In this document: in pieces, positions 3,781 to 16,414 of the stretch
How the letters are laid out: the number at the start of each line of letters is the position of its first letter
Numbering within the stretch: the first letter of the stretch is position 1
Assembly (NCBI GenBank): GCA_033297075.1
Contig: MU858205.1
Coordinates: 26,114 to 90,113, forward strand
Source: Rhypophila decipiens
Lineage: Eukaryota; Ascomycota; Sordariomycetes; Sordariales; Naviculisporaceae
DNA length: 64,000 bases
Reading direction: 5' to 3'
Made by a program: the position numbers and the translations under genes
The notes under the pieces: generated by a model
Databases searched by the model: none
What the model was told of the DNA's origin: nothing
The model's input: the letters and a program-made list of their open reading frames with translations, nothing else

Positions 3781-3845
3781 AAGAAATAACAGGGTGCTCG
3801 AAGGACTCGTGGACTGCGGCACTTCGCTGCGGAGCGCTGACTCGT

Positions 3846-5372
3846 TCACAGATCATAGAAAGAACTCTTGGAACGAGTGAGGCTGTGTCGGCGCCTGGGA
3901 ACCGGAGATGCAATGACGGCTGGAACGGAGATGACAGTCTTCTCCGGCTCCTCATCCGAGTCCATCTCTGCAATCTCATCCAGAGAAGCCAGACCATCGC
4001 AGGATACTAGCCAGGGGTGCTCCTTGTAGTGGGTGTTGTCTACAAGGTAGCCAGTGACACCCTCGGGTGAGGTCATCGTGAGCTCAGGAATGGGGAGGCC
4101 GCCCCTTCTGATTGCACGGCCGCTGTCGATAACGTTGCAGACGCTGGGGGTTTCTTGAACAGCCCAGGTGCATTTTGCCACCCGGTAGAAACCTCGGGCC
4201 TTCCAGTATTCTTGGTTTGCCATTTGGGTGAGATAGATGTGCTCATGGTAATCCACACCGCTGTGTAACTCCCAGCCTGGATACCAGTGTCCGGTCAAGG
4301 GGAGGGGATGAGGCTTCTTGGCTGGTCCTTCCTCCTCACTATCGTACTCGTCACTGTCCTCCGCGTACAGGGCTTCATCCTCAGAGTCCATGTCTTCGAG
4401 GTCGCTGTCGTCTTCCTCGGACTCTTCGGCAATTGTGTCCAGCTGGGTGGGCATTACCAGCTGGGTAGAGGTTTTCAATTGCGTGACTGGGGCCTCTTCT
4501 TGCGGAACCTCCTCTTGGGCGACCTCCTTTTGGGCGACCTCCACGTCTTCCTCTTCATCCGAGGACACAGTGACGTACTCGGCGTCGTAGTCTGGATGGA
4601 GCCAGACTGGCTCCGGCTGGGTGACTTGCCACCATTGATCCAGCCCGCTAACCTCCCCAGGAGAGACCGCTCGAATCTTGCGGTCCTTTCTCCAATACTG
4701 GCGACCATTGTTGGCAATTGCCAGGACGACATCGCCCCAGACTTCCCGCTCGAACTCGGCAATAATCTCCCATTGTGGAGAATACTCAACGATGGTGTCG
4801 GGCTGGTCGCAATCGTTGTCGAATATAGTGGTGAAGCCAGGCACGTAGTTGGCGGACCGGTCTTCAGTCGAGTTGGTGGATTGGTCTTCAGTCGTGGTGG
4901 GGTATTGGTCTTCAGATTTAACTGGGACAAGTGACGATTCACTTCCTTCATGCTCAGGGACTTCAGCGCTGAGAACTGACGATTCAGAAGCTGGATACAG
5001 AGTCAGTAGAGGAACAAGTACATTCTCGTCAGAAAGTGTCTTGCCCTCTGGGATCAACTCCTCAACATGCTCAGCGGAAGGGGAGTCAAGGCCGGTTTTA
5101 TAGTAGCAGTCATCGCCAAGGTGTGTGGAGTCAACGTCGAAAGTAGAGGGGCAAGGTGTAGTGCTGCCTGAATCATCAGATTCACTACAAGAAAAAGAGT
5201 CTGTTAGTCTTTTGGATGTCGGAAAGTTAGACAGGGAATCAAAGAGAGCTTACCTCTGGGAAGAGAGATCTGGGTTTGCAACATGGTTGGGTTGAGCATC
5301 ATCCGGCGTTACTTTCGTGGTTCCATTCTGGGGCTCATCATCCGAGAAGACAACCTGCTGGCCGCGCGACAG
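3846..5372 (-). CDS. Copy A, acidic repeat protein downstream of in-frame UAG
   Basis: The frame begins directly after the UAG at 5375-5373 and runs through exon 5372-5254, a 69-bp intron (5253-5185; GTAAGC donor, CTAAC branch, TTGTAG acceptor) and exon 5184-3846, about 485 codons in all. The splice keeps the frame of the upstream membrane peptide. A domain with PQWEIIAEFEREVW and NNGRQYWRKDRK lies around codons 180-210 after the UAG. It is followed by acidic and E/Q-rich linkers and one roughly 100-residue repeat (PLPLTGHWYPGW ... LPIPELTMTSPEG). The same domain and three copies of the repeat occur in copy B. The first in-frame AUG is at 4454, 283 codons after the UAG and downstream of the conserved domain. 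Not recognised; the coding nature is well supported by the paralog, the mode of translation is not. Confidence 0.75.
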
Positions 5373-5579
5373 CTAGTCGGCGACCTCACAGATCATCTCC
5401 AAGGATGAGAGGAGGGGGGAGCGGAACAGGAGACCACAGGTGAGGAAGTAACCGGAGAGCATAGTGAATGTCGAGAAATGGCCGAGAAGCCACAGAATAG
5501 CGACAAGAAGGAAGAGATTATAGCCGCACGAAGCGACGTGGGGATGCTGAGTAGCAGCGGGAAAGCTCTGGGAAGCCAT
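5373..5579 (-). CDS. Copy A, 68-residue membrane peptide ending in UAG
   Basis: The ATG at 5579 opens 68 codons ending in TAG at 5375-5373. The N-terminal 20 residues are polar. Two hydrophobic stretches follow (around residues 20-36 and 38-56), and the chain ends SSLEMICEVAD. It aligns without gaps over its last 48-49 residues with the 69-residue peptide of copy B, sharing a Trp, a GLLF and the CE-[VI]-A end right before the stop. The frame is also open upstream of the ATG for 100 codons, but that part reads as an untranslated leader and has no counterpart in B. The peptide is probably membrane-inserted. Immediately after UAG the frame continues into the long acidic protein. Confidence 0.75.
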   Translation of the reverse strand: MASQSFPAATQHPHVASCGYNLFLLVAILWLLGHFSTFTMLSGYFLTCGLLFRSPLLSSLEMICEVAD

Positions 5580-5854
5580 CGTGTCGTGGTGGTGATTGCT
5601 CGTTGGAGAGATGAGCAGTGCGCAGACAAGTGTGCAGAGAAGTGTGCAGACAAGTGCGTAAATAAGTATGTAAATAGATTGCAATGATGTAAAAGAGCAA
5701 GGAAGATAGTCAAGCAATGAAGTGCTGATGAAAATCGATGGATGCGGTGTCGATTTGCTAAAAAGCGTGTCGAAAGGAAGAGGAGAGGAAGGAAGGGAAT
5801 CGTGGACAGTTTGGGAACGGAGGGAACCCTTTATATGTGTCCGAAAAACCGGAG

Positions 5855-5922
5855 CAGGTCCGTGCACACGGCCTGGCAACCGGACAGCGGGGCGGGCAGG
5901 GTCGGATGGAACTGGTCACCCG
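5855..5922 (-). promoter_or_regulatory. Shared upstream element of copy A
   Basis: The 13-mer CAGGTCCGTGCAC (5855-5867, + strand) lies 276 bp upstream of the copy A ATG. The same 13-mer occurs 393 bp upstream of the copy B ATG. A GTCACCCG word follows it in both, at 5915-5922 here. The conservation within otherwise diverged promoters suggests a common regulator binding site; no known factor is identified. Confidence 0.5.
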
Positions 5923-6389
5923 AGTCGACGGCGTTGGAACAGCAACCTTCGGGGAGCTCCGGGCTCGTGGTGCACTGCAAACTAGCGGTCAACAAGTCCC
6001 TGACTCAGTGTGTGTCAACAATAGTGGGGTGGTCCTGTCTTTCTTGGAAAGGTCACCTGTCGAATGGTGATGGTGGGGGAACCAGGAGGGGTTTATCAGT
6101 TGGACGCAGAAACCTCGATGTATCCTTACCCACTATGACCATACCAGTAAGGTAAATTACTAGCTACATTTCAGGTTTTCAGTTCTAGACATCATAATCT
6201 CTCCGCTTCTTAACCATCACCAGAAGAGGTCTACAGTCGCTAATATGCATCTCATGAAGGTTACACCTAGCCTCGCTAGAAGGATGACGTTGATTATCGA
6301 GTCCCCACGTACGTATACTTGAGCAATCATTATTCGCGCAGATGACTCAAACTTCAACTTCAACGTCATCGCTGCCGCCTAACATCTAA

Positions 6390-6960
6390 CTTTACCTTGG
6401 CCATAATCTCGAATACCGAAACGGTTCATGGCTTGGCGGTCTCCCAGCCTCCCGCACCCTCTGTGACGACCTCCTGAAAACACACCATCTTCAACCACCC
6501 TGGCACACGGACATCATCCAAACCGACGATCTCGACACAAAAACGAACCTGAGATTTTCAAAGGCAGACTTGATTGATAACCGCCGCTCAATCGACGTCC
6601 TCATTGAGAGAGGGCTCTTGGCGGCATGCCCCACCTTGTGGAACCATTCAGCCTTGTAAGAGAAGTCCTATTCCTACTAACCGAATCACATGCGCGAAAC
6701 TAGCCACTACCACGTCGTCCACGTCAACGAGAGAGTTCAGTTATCATGTTCCTGGATGCGACGTGGTCAGTTGTATGGGACGCCTGCTCTTTCCATGTGA
6801 ACTTGATCCATGGTATAGCTATGAGGACATCCAGAAAACTTCTTACCGGCTTGCAGGCGCACGAGAGACAGAGGGGGAAAAGCCTGCGAGAGTGGCTCAC
6901 AGGACGCTCATCGAGTTACCTTGGAAGCTGGAGGATGGAACGACACGCCTGTGAATTGAA
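6390..6960 (+). pseudogene. Probable decayed coding fragments, plus strand
   Basis: A frame open from 6390 to the TAA at 6657-6659 (89 codons) has protein-like composition (for example RFSKADLIDNRRSIDVLIER) but no ATG and no usable upstream acceptor. Further protein-like pieces follow to about 6960 in different frames (DPWYSYEDIQKTSYRLAGAR; RSSSYLGSWRMERHACELNS). The pattern suggests a frameshifted relic of one gene. No family is recognised, and it could be chance open sequence. Confidence 0.3.
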
Positions 6961-7110
6961 TTCAAAACAATACGAGGGGCATCAGAGAGTAAGGAATGAG
7001 GTGTCGTCTTTCCGAGCCTTCATTTCTAGATGCAGTGTGCTATCCTAATACAAACTCCCAATCTTTTCCACCAGACCTCTTCCCAAAGTTCACCAGAGAC
7101 CCCCAGACCA

Positions 7111-8217
7111 TCAGTGATACTCAAGACAATCACCAGCCTTTTCACTCAGATTCATCTTCTTCGGCCCGTCAACACCGCACTTCTTCAAACAGAAGCTCTT
7201 CAACTGCGGCTGAAAAGCCTCATATACCTTCTTAATATCCTTGACGTCCTTCTTAAAGTGATTCTAATCTCCCACAGAAAACAAAGCGCCCATATTCATC
7301 CCACTCGAGCCGGCACAAGTCAAGAGGCTATTGATCCATCTGTTATTTGCCTTCTTCTGCGGCCTGTGCCTTTTATAAATGGCAACGCATGACTTGCGCG
7401 TGGGGTGAAAAGCACAGAAGGCTAGATCCATACAATTATCTCTGGGACAGGCTGCCCCGTAAGGGAGGATCAAGTTCGGGTCGACGGCGTGGCCGATTTG
7501 GTAGTCTGAGATGTCCTTTGCTGGCGTGAGGCCTACTGACTTGCCACGGCGAGCGGTGGATTGGATGTTGAGGGCTGTTCTCTTCTCGCTGAGTAAGCCT
7601 ATGGGAACCGCGGTGGAAGAGATACATGAGATGAGGTGTTTAACGTCCGGGAGGGAAGAGGGAGAAACGACGACCCGACTCCCCTTTAGGTAGGTTGCAT
7701 TAGAGTTAGTCATCAGACCGGAGGCGGCATCCTTGGGAGGTGAGGGGCCTTCTTGACTGATTTTGGGATAGTAATTTTGGACAAAATGACATGCGTCTCG
7801 TCCAGTTCTGTGTATCCGACACAGGAAGCCATGGGATCGCAGTTCGGGCGGGCGTTATGGTCGTATGCGAATGGTTTGTAGCCCATCGGACAGGCGCAGG
7901 ATCTGTAGTCGTACTGCTTGTTGTGAAAGTAAGGGGTTTGACTGTTGGAGTAACACTGTCTGCCGATTTGATGATGGTTATCCCGCTGGATAGGCCAAAC
8001 AGCTCGTTCTTGTTACATCCGATGGCCAGATAGCCCAGATTCGCGCACATCTCAACCTCGAGGACGAACAGGGATTGCACATGGGCAGGCAGAGCTTCTT
8101 GTTGCCCAGCTCGTTGACGTAAGGGCATTGGACTTTCGTCCCGCCACGGTGTTCTGTCTTACTCATAGCGAGCCTAGCAAAGGCTGGCAGGAGGAGAACT
8201 TTTGGCGACGGCTTCAT
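7111..8217 (-). pseudogene. Decayed cysteine-rich secreted protein gene
   Basis: An ATG at 8217 starts a signal-peptide-like sequence (MKPSPKVLLLPAFARLA) followed by a Cys-rich region (CPYVNELGNKKLCLPMCNPC). The protein-like sequence then jumps frame near 8075, again near 7960 and again near 7790, with no room for introns of normal size. The last segment meets an in-frame TAG at 7266-7264, yet coding-like sequence continues in the same frame (DVKDIKKVYEAFQPQLKSFC) to TGA at 7113-7111. Regularly spaced cysteines persist in every segment. The best reading is a secreted cysteine-rich protein gene, about 360 codons, now inactivated by at least three frameshifts and one stop. Sequencing indels are the alternative. 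It sits between the two UAG-split paralogs on the same strand. Confidence 0.55.
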
Positions 8218-9278
8218 CTTGGTGGGTTTTGTGTGTGGAAAGACAGGCTCTGATTTCAAGTGGGGCTTGGAGGAAATGGTAGCGTTATTATAATATCCAT
8301 GAGGAGTACTCGGAGCGGGATGCTGACGAGAGAAGGCGATTGTGTAACTTCCTTCCTGAGAATCCATCAAGGATTCAAGTCAGGGTAAGGCTTGACGCGG
8401 ATATTAGTTAAAGCTGAAAATGACGCCTCTCACTGGTCCTGATGTTCCCAAAACAGTCACTAAATCTCGACCTCGGACGTTTCACCCCGTGAATTGAAGC
8501 AATCTACTGAGGGTATAAAATACCTTAACCTGCAGGTCGTGGCTCTGGTACACGATGCAAGAGCCCAACTCATGCACCCGAGCAATCTCGCGTGAGCATA
8601 CCGAAAGACTCGAATACAAATGGAGGCGTGTATGCTTGCGAAAGGGGTAATCATCACGACAGAAAGTGATTAACAGCGAGTAAGATCTCGGTGGCCGCTT
8701 GCACGCAAAAGTCAAGAATCGCAGGTTCGCGTCTAGACAAGAAGTCAAGAACCTGAAGGGCTGGACCTGGCATATGGTTTGCAACGAGAAATGGGTAGAT
8801 AGAGTCAGATTAGCAGAATCGAGTCCATCAAAGCACGTCAAAACTACGATCGAGTCGCAACAAGCAAAGTTAAATGTCAAGGCAATCCAAGTCGAAGAGT
8901 TCACAAGCACAATGCAGGTCATCAGAGTCAGATCAGTTGGCGGCAAACAACTCAATTAAAGAAATCTGCCAAAGGTTTATATGTAGGCAAGGCGCATCTC
9001 AGACTGTACAAGCAAACCTCTAATCTCCATTTACTCGGAGATGATCTAATACCGTTTCCCAAAAGCCAAACCAAAACGCCATAAATGAAATCAAAATGCA
9101 AATACCCAGAAACTCCCAAAATGTCAAAACTCCAGAAGAAAATTCCCAATGCCCAACATGGCGTACCCAAACATGATGAATGATATACAATGTGTCAACA
9201 ACCCGATCCTTTCCCTTGCTCCTCCAGGCTCGACCATAATACAATCTCTATATAGCCCGCTCATCCCCGGCACTCGAG
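8218..9278. other. Intergenic between pseudogene and copy B 3' end
   Basis: No supported gene. Bases 9060-9160 are rich in CCAAA/CCCAA words, like the 3' flank of copy A. Open frames on both strands around 8480-8960 overlap each other antisense and show no domain. Confidence 0.5.
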
Positions 9279-9332
9279 AAAAAACCCCGCCAGCTTTAGC
9301 TGTAGCGTGGGAAAAAGAGGCCTCTTGAGCTT
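9279..9332 (-). other. 3' block shared with copy A
   Basis: This is the counterpart of 3472-3527. It holds the identical 16-mer CCAGCTTTAGCTGTAG at 9290-9305, flanked by a matching A/C run on one side and a GGGAAAAAGAG-CCTC-TGAGC stretch on the other. It lies about 105 bp beyond the copy B stop. A GTGAGT donor overlaps that stop codon, so an intron 9441-9300 ending at the CTACAG of this block is possible; it would place a TAA one codon after the junction. Confidence 0.6.
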
Positions 9333-9437
9333 TCTCCTCCAAACCCATTCAGGAAATCCCATCTTCATCCTCCACTCTTCCCCGTCTTTATCGTCCCCAA
9401 GATGTGTGTTGAGAATGATGACTGATCTGACTTGCAC

Positions 9438-11970
9438 TCACTCGTCATCATCGTCCATGTCCGCCCAGTTGGTCTGGCCTGGGTAATAAGCTGTATCATC
9501 CAGCCAGCAAGTCTCACCCTCTGGAGTTGTAAAGGTAAGTTCAGGCACTGGCAGCCCATTGGACAGCTTCACAGAACCAAAGACCCGTGAGAGCACCAAG
9601 TCTCGGCTCGGCAGAGACACCCATGTATTTGGGCGGTTTTGGCATTGAACCTCGCCGCCAGAGGCAAAATAGTCCTCCCACTGCCGCTTTCCGGTCAAGA
9701 AAATCTTTCCGTCTTCATCAACACAGCTGTGAAGAGCCCAGCCGGGGTTGAGGTGCCCAGTGAGGGGGAGAGGAGGGCAGTCTTCGGAGAAATTCTCCCC
9801 ATCTCCAAAGAGGCCGTCATCGTCATTGTCATTCTCATCGGACTCATACACCTGGACTTGTCCAAGGCCAGTCTCAGATGCAGCGAGGACCTCGGAGGAA
9901 ACGAGGTCGGTGCAGGAAGTGAGGTCCTGTTGCGACTCCTGGACTGGCTCCTCATCGCCATCATCATCCGCCCGGTTGGTCTGGTCAGGGTAGTAAGCCA
10001 GATCCTCGAGCCAGCCAATTTCACCTTCCGGTGTAGTGATGGTGAGCTCTGGCACGGTTTGGCCAGAGGGAAGGATTTGTTGCTTGCCGAAATTTAGCAA
10101 ATCCGAGGGACTCTCCATTACGACCCATGAGGTCTTTGTGCTGAGTCGGAGTCCGTTGGTTGAGTGGTACCAGTTTTGGTAGTCCCGAATGACATAGACC
10201 TGTCCGTGCACATCTATGCTGCTGTGGCCTTTCCAGGAAGGATTCTCGGCCCCTGTGAGCGGGAGAGGATTGAAAGTCTCGCCCTCGTCATCCTCGCTAT
10301 TTTCAAAGAGGGTCTCATCATCGGATCCATAGGCCGGCTTCCCAAGGCTCATGTGTGGGATGTCCTCGTCAGGGCTCTCCTGGATGGCGGTAACGTTGGA
10401 AGAGACGTCGTGATCGGTGTTCTCGGCTGCTTCTTCCTCCTCAGACTCCTCCTCAATTGTGTAGAGGTCCCTGGGGGCGCCGGGGATGGTGGCTGGACTT
10501 GGGAATACAGAGACTCCAGCAAGATCCCCCGTGGTAGCAAGGTCCTCTTGGGCCTCCTCGGCCAGCTCATCATCATCATCGTCCAAGTCGGCCCAGCTAA
10601 CCTGGCCTGGATAATATGCCAAGTCTTCAGGCCAGCTAACCTCTCCCTCTGGAGAAGTCACGATGGGTTCTGGCACTAGTTGGCCAGAGGGCAAGATTTG
10701 ACGTTTGCCCCTGTTAAGCAAGCTGGATGGAGAGTCCATGGTAGCCCAGGACGAAGCCTTCCTTTGGCACTTATATCCCTGGGCAATGAACCGCTCATCA
10801 TCGTAATCTCGGAGCAAGAGAATGTGGCCGTTCTCGTCGATCCAGCTGTGCTGGGCCCAGTCAGGATGATGAGCACCCGTGTGGATTAAAGGGTGCTGGC
10901 GAGCCTCGCCGGTATCGGGATCAAGACCGACGTTCCAGTATTCCTCAAAGGTGAAGAGGCCTGGTTTCATGTAGACAGGGGTCGCACCCGTCTGTGTCAC
11001 CCATTCAAGAAGATCCTCGATCTCGGCGTCTGTAAGGAGCTTGTACCGATTCTCTTTGCGCCAGTAGCGGCGCCCGGTGTTTGAGATAGCATAAGCTGCC
11101 TCAAATCCGTCGCGCTCGAACTCGACGACTATCTCCCAATCCTCGGAGAACTCCGCAATCTCTGTGTCTTGCTCGGGGCAGAGCTCATCGGTCTCACTGG
11201 TGGAATCTTCGGCTGGCTGATCTTCCTGTTGGTCCTCATCCTCTGGATCCGAGAGCAAGGCAGAGCTCTCATAATTGTCGCGGACATTATTGGCAATGGA
11301 GTTATATTCGTTATCAGGGAGTGGAATTTCCGCCAAAACGGTGGCCGTCAATTGTCGGACAACGTCGAAAGGCAGAGGACAGAAGTCTTCGTCGTCTGAC
11401 TCAGAGTCAGAGTCCGGAGGAGTGGGCGTATTGGAACGAGAATAAACAGAGGACCCATGACTGAAGATGGAACCTGGATCAGTGCAGTAATTGCTAATAC
11501 AAAATTCGTTAGCCTGTTATTCATCAAGAAAGAAAGGAGTTGAGAGAAAGATTGAAATACCTTGATCCTGAAGAACGCCGAGTTGAGAGCTCTGGTTCTG
11601 TTGAAGGTTCGACCTCGGGGTGTCCATCCTCATCAAAGGCAGAAAAGCTGTGAGAATAAGCTGTTAGTCTTGTGTTGTCATTGGAATCAAGTGAGGAAAC
11701 ATACCAGAAAGACCAGTCGATGCTGTTGTCAAAGAAGGATTCTTCTTCTTCTTCAAGTTCTTCTTCCTCGACGATTTTTGCAAGCTGGAGGTCGGGAAGG
11801 GCGAAACGTTGGAATGGATCAGGCCTTTCGACGGTGATGTTGGGCATGGCCTCGAGGAAGAGCAAATATGAATCGGCATCGAAAGAGGCTTCTTCAGTGG
11901 CGTCGGTTATGGTGGTGTTGTATTCATCTGCTCCTTCGTCGATGGAGGTTCCAACCGGAGATGCAGCCAA
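9438..11970 (-). CDS. Copy B, acidic three-repeat protein downstream of in-frame UAG
   Basis: The frame continues directly after the UAG at 11973-11971 through exon 11970-11705, intron 11704-11648 (57 bp, GTATGT, CTAAC), exon 11647-11561, intron 11560-11494 (67 bp, GTATTT, CTAAC) and exon 11493-9438, about 802 codons. It carries the domain seen in copy A (EDWEIVVEFERD, SNTGRRYWRKENR; near 11150-11050). Three roughly 100-residue repeats follow at about 10892-10583, 10265-9957 and 9773-9455. Each starts like PLPLTG..NPxW..HS.VD and ends like VPELTxTTPEGE..WL.D.AYYPxQ, with Asp/Glu-rich linkers between. The first in-frame AUG after the UAG is at 11847, 41 codons in. No membrane segment lies in this part. 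Family not recognised; copy A is a clear paralog with one repeat. Confidence 0.8.
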
Positions 11971-12180
11971 CTAGGCCGCAATCTCGCAGAGGACCTGCAA
12001 AGAAGCAAGGAGGAGAATCAGGAAGAGAAGACCGAAGACCAGGCAAGGACCAGTGAGGCGAAGGATGTTGACCGTGAGGGCAAGGAACCAGAAGAGGAAG
12101 GCGAAGAAGTCGAGAGAATTGCTGAGGGTAGGAGCACGTGGCTCAGTGGCGAGAACACGAACACTCTGTGTCGAAGACAT
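11971..12180 (-). CDS. Copy B, 69-residue membrane peptide ending in UAG
   Basis: The ATG at 12180 opens 69 codons ending in TAG (11973-11971). After about 23 polar residues come two strongly hydrophobic segments (around 24-40 and 43-62, the second LVFGLLFLILLLASL), then QVLCEIAA. Its gap-free match to the copy A peptide, right up to the codon before the stop, argues that this is translated protein and not intron or leader. The downstream acidic frame is in phase with it in the spliced mRNA. It may act alone as a small membrane peptide, or as the anchor of a longer readthrough product of about 870 residues. Confidence 0.75.
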   Translation of the reverse strand: MSSTQSVRVLATEPRAPTLSNSLDFFAFLFWFLALTVNILRLTGPCLVFGLLFLILLLASLQVLCEIAA

Positions 12181-12572
12181 GGTGAAGGTGTTGGATTGTT
12201 AAGACGAGAGTCGAATAGTGTGTCGAGACTCGAAAGGTATGTCGGAAGACAAGGGTGGATAGGCGACTGTTAAGATGTCGAGATAGTTGAATAGAGGTGA
12301 AGATCTAAGAAGATCGAGATGGTGGGGGATCAATAAGATCGTAAAGTTAAAGAGCTGCAGAGCTGCGAGGTAAGATGCAGATGCAGAGGAAGATGGTAAT
12401 TGGTAAAGATGGATGAAGGTAATTGCTTTGATGGCTTAAGATGATGAGGATCACTAAGGATCAAGCAAAAAGTTCGGATGCGTCTTGACGAGAATTCGTG
12501 AGAGCGATGCGGAATCAGGAAGGAAGGAGAGTTGGACTGGCGGGGGACCAATTCTTTTTTAGACGGTCGGGA

Positions 12573-12900: not shown

Positions 12901-16414
<3,514 letters not shown>

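Follow-up and report, generated by a model that had tools for sequence, protein, structure and literature searches.

Within a 64,000-nucleotide (nt) stretch of the genome of Rhypophila decipiens, described as a dung fungus of the Naviculisporaceae in the Sordariales (PMC12734299), two paralogous genes, here called copies A and B, each carry one in-frame UAG that separates a membrane peptide from a long acidic protein. The stretch, hereafter the window, covers positions 26114-90113 of contig C161, which is 90 kb long in an assembly of 45.7 Mb; positions are those of the window unless another locus is named. Both genes are read from the minus strand. Copy A spans 5579-3846, with its ATG at 5579 and the UAG at 5375-5373 as codon 69, and copy B spans 12180-9438, with its ATG at 12180 and the UAG at 11973-11971 as codon 70. 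Their features are as follows.

5376..5579, minus strand: copy A peptide, 68 amino acids with two hydrophobic segments (from the sequence; the sole peptide relative found is copy B)
5373..5375, minus strand: copy A in-frame UAG, with the predicted edited A at 5374 (from the sequence and the fold)
5344..5404, minus strand: predicted RNA hairpin of copy A (folded segment), UAG in the 5-nt tip loop UAGCU (minimum free energy -34.6 kcal/mol, z -5.34, 0/200 shuffles as good)
5254..5372, minus strand: part of copy A exon 1 past the UAG, coding-like in the UAG frame by the codon model
5270..5389, minus strand: 120-nt 'intron' of public model P0001, with donor GTGAGG, by which the UAG is removed; considered to be either an alternative splice or an annotation artefact
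5185..5253, minus strand: copy A intron, GTAAGC ... CTAAC ... TAG (from the sequence and a public model)
3846..5184, minus strand: copy A exon 2, acidic protein with the WEI..YWRK domain and one PLPLTGH..PGW domain, including the stop
11974..12180, minus strand: copy B peptide, 69 amino acids with two hydrophobic segments (from the sequence; the sole peptide relative found is copy A)
11971..11973, minus strand: copy B in-frame UAG, with the predicted edited A at 11972 (from the sequence and the fold)
11942..12002, minus strand: predicted RNA hairpin of copy B (folded segment), UAG in the 5-nt tip loop UAGUU (minimum free energy -28.6 kcal/mol, z -4.00, 0/200 shuffles as good)
11705..11970, minus strand: part of copy B exon 1 past the UAG, coding-like, containing Met residue 112, the start of public model P0004
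11648..11704, minus strand: copy B intron 1 (from the sequence and a public model)
11561..11647, minus strand: copy B exon 2
11494..11560, minus strand: copy B intron 2 (from the sequence and a public model)
9438..11493, minus strand: copy B exon 3, acidic protein with the WEI..YWRK domain and three PL..TG..PxW repeats, including the stop

Once the intron of A (5253-5185) and the two of B (11704-11648 and 11560-11494) are removed, all of which are also present in public models, each gene holds a single internal stop and reads through 554 (A) or 872 codons (B), counting the UAG codon. Beyond the UAG the frame stays open for 485 codons in A, after one ordinary intron is taken out, and for 802 in B, after two. 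An earlier note on this DNA had described just such an arrangement, a hydrophobic peptide of 68 or 69 residues followed by a UAG and the same frame running into an acidic protein, and this sequence observation is right and not a matter of chance. The contexts that it gave, GAC-UAG-CUG and GCC-UAG-UUG, are also those found (GCC-GAC-UAG-CUG in A and GCG-GCC-UAG-UUG in B), and its claim that copy A offers no nearby start is borne out: the first Met past the UAG is residue 353, with 283 codons between, and both WEI (247) and YWRK (272) precede it. In copy B, a point not mentioned in that note, the first Met is much closer, at residue 112, 42 codons on.

The two peptides are mutual relatives with 31% identity (E 0.004 and 0.007 in a search of the genome), and each matched only itself and the other copy among those genome candidates that were scored. 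As the earlier note had it, they align without gaps to the codon before the stop, which places the stop at a homologous position; identical nucleotides at codon positions 1, 2 and 3 number 33, 41 and 28 of 68, position 2 being the best conserved. The bodies are acidic (Asp plus Glu 21% in A and 22% in B; Lys plus Arg 6% and 5%) and carry a WEI..EFER/YWRK domain and a PL..TG..PxW..HS..D domain, the latter present once in A and three times in B. Among the searches made, this fast-changing cluster was found only in Naviculisporaceae. Copy B has a relative in another species that is 84% identical over the query region, and a further, less close one (39% over the query region) is P0006 of Naviculisporaceae sp. 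PSN 640, whose model is without the membrane peptide. Two of the three protein searches scored only the roughly 8000 candidates that had the most words in common with the query, so further relatives may exist. Pfam gave nothing above cut-off in A, B or their relatives, zinc-finger domains included, a PDB sequence search with one 184-residue stretch of B gave no match, and Rfam gave nothing at gathering score over 3800-12300. The AlphaFold model of P0006 has a mean predicted local distance difference test (pLDDT) score of 38, the 51 of its 454 residues that reach 70-90 lying around WEI..YWRK, and Foldseek found no match to it at E up to 0.001.

The frame beyond the UAG was assessed with a codon model trained on 66 long open reading frames (ORFs) taken from 290 kb of this assembly. 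Read in the frame of the UAG, copy A scores 0.156 per codon from the UAG to the first donor and copy B 0.186 per codon from the UAG to the first Met. For reference, the median for true coding 40-codon stretches is 0.118, and 5% of the open non-coding ones score above 0.116; this background contains some exons that are unannotated, and the long downstream ORFs of A and B were themselves part of the training data. The tested stretches, as shorter open segments, lay outside the training set. The other two sense frames past the UAG have negative scores and stops in both copies. This coding-like character speaks against the public models, in which the stretch is mostly intron in A and untranslated in B. 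Across the 290 kb, the layout of a hydrophobic ORF of 45-120 codons, a stop and a coding-like continuation of at least 30 codons is shown by 3/105 TAG, 1/92 TAA and 2/212 TGA ORFs of that size, copies A and B making up two of the three that end in TAG. Stops flanked on both sides by 40 coding-like codons number 18/4649 for TAG (10 of the 18 were inspected), 4/4637 for TAA and 17/10275 for TGA; this excess of UAG was not used as evidence because antisense frames of genes add to it.

In both copies the UAG is predicted to lie wholly inside the tip loop of a hairpin, with its A at loop position 2. The 61-nt folds listed above compare with shuffle means of -19.1 kcal/mol for A and -17.1 kcal/mol for B, and 41-nt folds reach -22.3 (z -3.14) and -20.0 (z -4.07), with 1/200 shuffles as good in each case. 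When 4645 UAGs on both strands of 290 kb (200 kb from contig C1 plus the 90 kb of C161) were folded, the A was found in a hairpin loop in 1455, in a loop of up to 7 nt in 801, and at position 2 of a 5-nt loop in 23. By minimum free energy, copy A ranks second lowest and copy B eighth lowest of the 4645, and they are first and second within the 23 that have the same loop geometry. We also used a null in which the protein is kept fixed and synonymous codons are drawn by genome usage (5000 draws). Recodings as stable as A and B numbered 1 and 14 with 10 flanking codons, 6 and 7 with 7, and 4 and 31 with 5. The four loop-adjacent pairs are C-G, A-U, G-C and C-G in A and C-G, C-G, G-C and G-U in B, so that pairing is kept in both copies, for two of the four pairs through changes on both sides, where the DNA around the stop is otherwise identical at only 32/63 positions; two rows are too few to prove covariation.

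Five public gene models from three genomes all dodge the same point, in three ways for copy A and in one for copy B. P0001 (R. decipiens) skips 5389-5270 of copy A and is reproduced exactly from the DNA; the public protein reproduced by copy A DNA is QBC37DRAFT_404331. For P0002 (V8F06, in a record named R. decipiens), a 27-nt skip of 5384-5358 reproduces the sequence through LSSQ, and P0003 (Rhypophila sp. PSN 637), judged from its protein, appears to exit at the same codon as P0001 and to re-enter elsewhere. The models of copy B, P0004 (R. decipiens) and P0005 (PSN 637), start at the first Met past the UAG, P0004 being B from residue 112. Because these models avoid the site, we infer that the UAG is present in all three genomes. 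They look like annotation errors documented at edited stops: in Fusarium graminearum, introns are reported to have been inserted by automated annotation to avoid stops in at least 69 genes besides PUK1 (PMC4817773), and the errors described for CHE1 are a stop taken as final, a start at the next Met and a small intron (PMC11169179). The earlier note had named a major spliced isoform lacking the UAG as one of the observations that should tell against recoding. Such skips do appear in the public models of copy A, but three genomes have three different ones, as in misannotated edited stops.

We consider it likely, from the fit of the DNA to published editing features, that both UAGs are stops corrected by A-to-I mRNA editing. 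This editing is described as favouring hairpin loops and U at -1 and as changing UAG to UGG (PMC11156358, PMC4817773), as common in Sordariomycetes (PMC11087585), and as occurring in the sexual stage of Sordaria macrospora, a member of the Sordariales (PMC5381528). In F. graminearum, 62.4% of sites are reported in hairpin loops, with a higher share where editing is strong, and editing is heavier in stable loops (PMC4817773). Editing was taken as the mechanism because the features that can be tested in DNA fit, except for the preference for A or G at +3; the +1 base is G in both copies, as with every UAG. The earlier note claimed that recoding of the UAG makes a short peptide that is free and a long form that is anchored; the coding statistics on both sides of the UAG and the homologous position support this, as do, indirectly, the public models from three genomes. 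Of the two mechanisms that it offered, programmed readthrough and some other recoding, the second covers editing, which the note did not name, and the first is not supported, the UAG being in a hairpin tip in both copies.

As we picture it, a deaminase of the Tad2-Tad3-Ame1 type, acting mainly in the sexual stage (we infer both stage and enzyme), would convert the A at 5374 in copy A and at 11972 in copy B to inosine. The UAG would then be read as UGG, giving Trp at residue 69 (A) or 70 (B), and the ribosome would continue, so that the predicted Trp-containing junctions are CEVADWLSR in A and CEIAAWLAASPVG in B. Unedited mRNA would yield only the free membrane peptide of 68 or 69 amino acids with its two hydrophobic segments, and edited mRNA the acidic protein of 554 or 872 amino acids, anchored in the membrane via the peptide. 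Editing would therefore decide whether the acidic body exists and would hold it at the membrane. DUF726, the Ame1 domain, has matches on contigs C158, C10 and C7 of this genome, as domain matches only. Editing probably takes place in the sexual stage. A second editing system, OLD-ZAO, is described as acting in virus-infected Neurospora (PMC12754623), and the OTT_1508-like deaminase domain (PF14441) has five matches in the genome (C29:255400, C119:93925, C344:8468, C107:95655 and C72:26262), which are possible OLD-type editors. None of the five is on the 90 kb of C161, so the sexual-stage system is favoured as the more probable of the two. An OLD-ZAO module at A and B themselves was considered and rejected, there being no deaminase match on the contig and no zinc-finger match in A, B or their relatives.

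Several points weigh against editing. Both copies have U at +3, unlike the A or G preferred in F. graminearum, which is described as a preference and not a requirement (PMC11156358). In 2632 (A) and 2746 (B) of the 5000 recodings with 10 flanking codons, the A still falls in some hairpin loop; by this model loop position alone is not rare, and stability is what is unusual. Stop-editing sites are reported to be rarely common to species (9/240 orthologous genes, S. macrospora protoperithecia; PMC5381528), so an edited site common to two old paralogs would be uncommon. Conservation of the UAG elsewhere is read from how ortholog models avoid the site and not from ortholog DNA, and P0002 could stem from a true 27-nt deletion. 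The Joint Genome Institute (JGI) is stated to have applied stranded RNA sequencing (RNA-seq) to these genomes (PMC12734299), which would allow the skip in P0001 to be genuine; given this, the fair donor GTGAGG and the precedent of FgBUD14, whose UAG is described both as edited and as removed by splicing of its intron (PMC11156358), some or all A transcripts may be spliced. A PUK1 orthologue with an in-frame UAG was not found in the 3 loci read of the 135 kinase matches listed (122/232 candidates scored): at C85 (L044) and C80 (L045) the stops are apparently intronic, at C128 (L046) there is one stop at the edge, and none is a convincing PUK1. This positive control is missing, not negative.

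The main rival is alternative splicing in copy A, with the UAG in a retained intron: splicing of 5389-5270, whose donor GTGAGG lies in a Cys codon, would put peptide and acidic protein into one continuous frame, and the unspliced form would give the short peptide. P0001 corresponds exactly to this splice; P0003, a model from a different species, appears to share its exit codon and to use another acceptor; and in FgBUD14 editing and splicing occur together (PMC11156358). We nevertheless think this unlikely. The skipped part past the UAG has coding-like codon statistics, 5389-5270 is, by eye, without the CTAAC branch site that the three remaining introns of the two genes have, and the three genomes have three different skips, one of them of 27 nt. 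Copy B has no comparable donor by eye, its models starting downstream instead, and the hairpins centred on the UAG would be left unexplained. Less probable still is programmed ribosomal readthrough of the UAG, even though the frame stays coding-like past the stop in both copies and a stable structure there could pause ribosomes. Efficient readthrough contexts include CARYYA after UAG and, in fungi, UGA-CUA, and the usual readthrough signal has its structure downstream of the stop. UAG-CUG and UAG-UUG are not known to be efficient contexts, and here the stop sits in the hairpin tip, so a ribosome decoding the UAG has already opened the structure; readthrough was down-weighted on these two grounds.

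Two further explanations seem to us very improbable, and about equally so. The peptide could be an independent ORF and the acidic protein a separate product of reinitiation or of a second promoter, with Met residue 112 as the start in B, which is where P0004 and P0005 begin and which is common to two species. Copy A, however, has no Met for 283 codons, until past its first domain, the stretch of B between the UAG and the Met is coding-like in frame, and the in-frame continuation in both copies would be a coincidence. Alternatively, A and B could be decaying pseudogenes with a chance stop, as might be suggested by a paralog on the same contig (D, below) that is broken by an insertion and also carries an in-frame TAG. 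Against decay, the remaining frames of A and B are open over 485 and 802 codons, the homologous codon is struck in both, the relative of B in another species retains 84% identity, and the predicted hairpins at the stop are strong. The UAG as the 3' end of an intron, which in both copies would then end in TAG, was also considered and rejected: by eye, the only upstream fungal-type donor is GTGAGG in A, too near the stop, and the peptide is conserved at the protein level.

Other genes were noted on the same contig, three of them outside the window. Paralog C (L008:1097-2998, minus strand) has 633 codons and both domains, with no membrane peptide seen and no internal stop. Paralog D (L008:4218-5543, plus strand) has an in-frame TAG at 4629 whose hairpin is not unusual, and its frame is broken by an insertion of about 380 bp (4864-5240) with 49-nt inverted ends that are 94% complementary, perhaps a small transposable element. 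Gene E (L008:6515-7078, plus strand) encodes a 71-amino acid hydrophobic peptide, then a UAG at 6728 and a basic, proline-rich tail of 115 in-frame codons, a layout as in A and B. The A of its UAG is in a 7-nt loop in shorter folds, with stability no better than chance; its peptide gave no BLASTP alignment with the B peptide and was absent from the genome-search matches of either peptide. Within the window, an open frame with a GH11 xylanase domain (Pfam E 4.4e-84) lies at 15479-16411 on the plus strand, about 3 kb past copy B. On contig C1 (C1:149591; L036:9591, plus strand), the UAG stop of a GCN5-like acetyltransferase (GNAT and bromodomain) is in a hairpin of -29.7 kcal/mol, and the 131 in-frame codons past it are coding-like. 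Recodings as stable as this hairpin number 10 (10 codons), 317 (7 codons) and 117 (5 codons) per 5000, and we regard this stop as a candidate for stop-loss editing.

If A-to-I editing is the right explanation, the five public models P0001-P0005 are wrong, and two edited stops have been predicted from DNA alone, to the exact bases, in a genus for which our literature search found no RNA-editing paper. Whether editable stops are selected for appears as a live question for restorative editing (PMC12754623), and divergent paralogs that keep the stop and build its hairpin with different bases argue that they can be. The proposed switch would fuse a membrane anchor to a protein, and in copy A to one without its own start codon before the first domain. 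Most likely this is a known if unusual process at a new site, its anchor-fusing architecture not being met in the published passages on editing cited here. More speculatively, and we give this little weight, the contig may hold a small class of genes composed of a membrane peptide, an editable UAG and a body that editing both creates and tethers, A and B sharing the layout by descent and gene E having it with no detectable sequence similarity to them; the cluster may serve a sexual-stage conflict, like the edited Neurospora spore-killer, with the long form kept out of vegetative cells.

Fungal peroxisomal isoforms arise by translational readthrough on UGA-CUA with no base change, so that a stop parts short and long forms there as here, with UGA-CUA in those genes and UAG in A and B. 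The Neurospora spore-killer gene rfk-1 reportedly undergoes RNA editing, and the edited base is reportedly in a UAG and lengthens the protein; it resembles A and B as a Sordariales gene with editing, which in A and B is predicted. The Sordariomycete premature-stop-correction genes PUK1, AMD1, FgAMA1, FgRID and FgBUD14, as far as they are described in the passages cited, resemble A and B in the in-frame UAG of an otherwise open gene, U at -1, a hairpin loop, a Sordariomycete host and stop-dodging models (PMC4817773, PMC11156358). Unlike in these genes, the stop of A and B stands between an entire membrane peptide and a soluble body, two divergent paralogs lying near each other have both retained it, and the editing is predicted from DNA. 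CHE1 and zao, with their OLD deaminases, share with A and B, in the descriptions cited, the same annotation errors, targets that are duplicated and have similarly placed stops, and a UAG that becomes UGG within a hairpin loop (PMC11169179, PMC12754623). Their targets, in contrast, are zinc-finger factors beside an OTT_1508-like deaminase, with editing of the premature stop codon in hyphae and OLD-ZAO forming an antiviral module.

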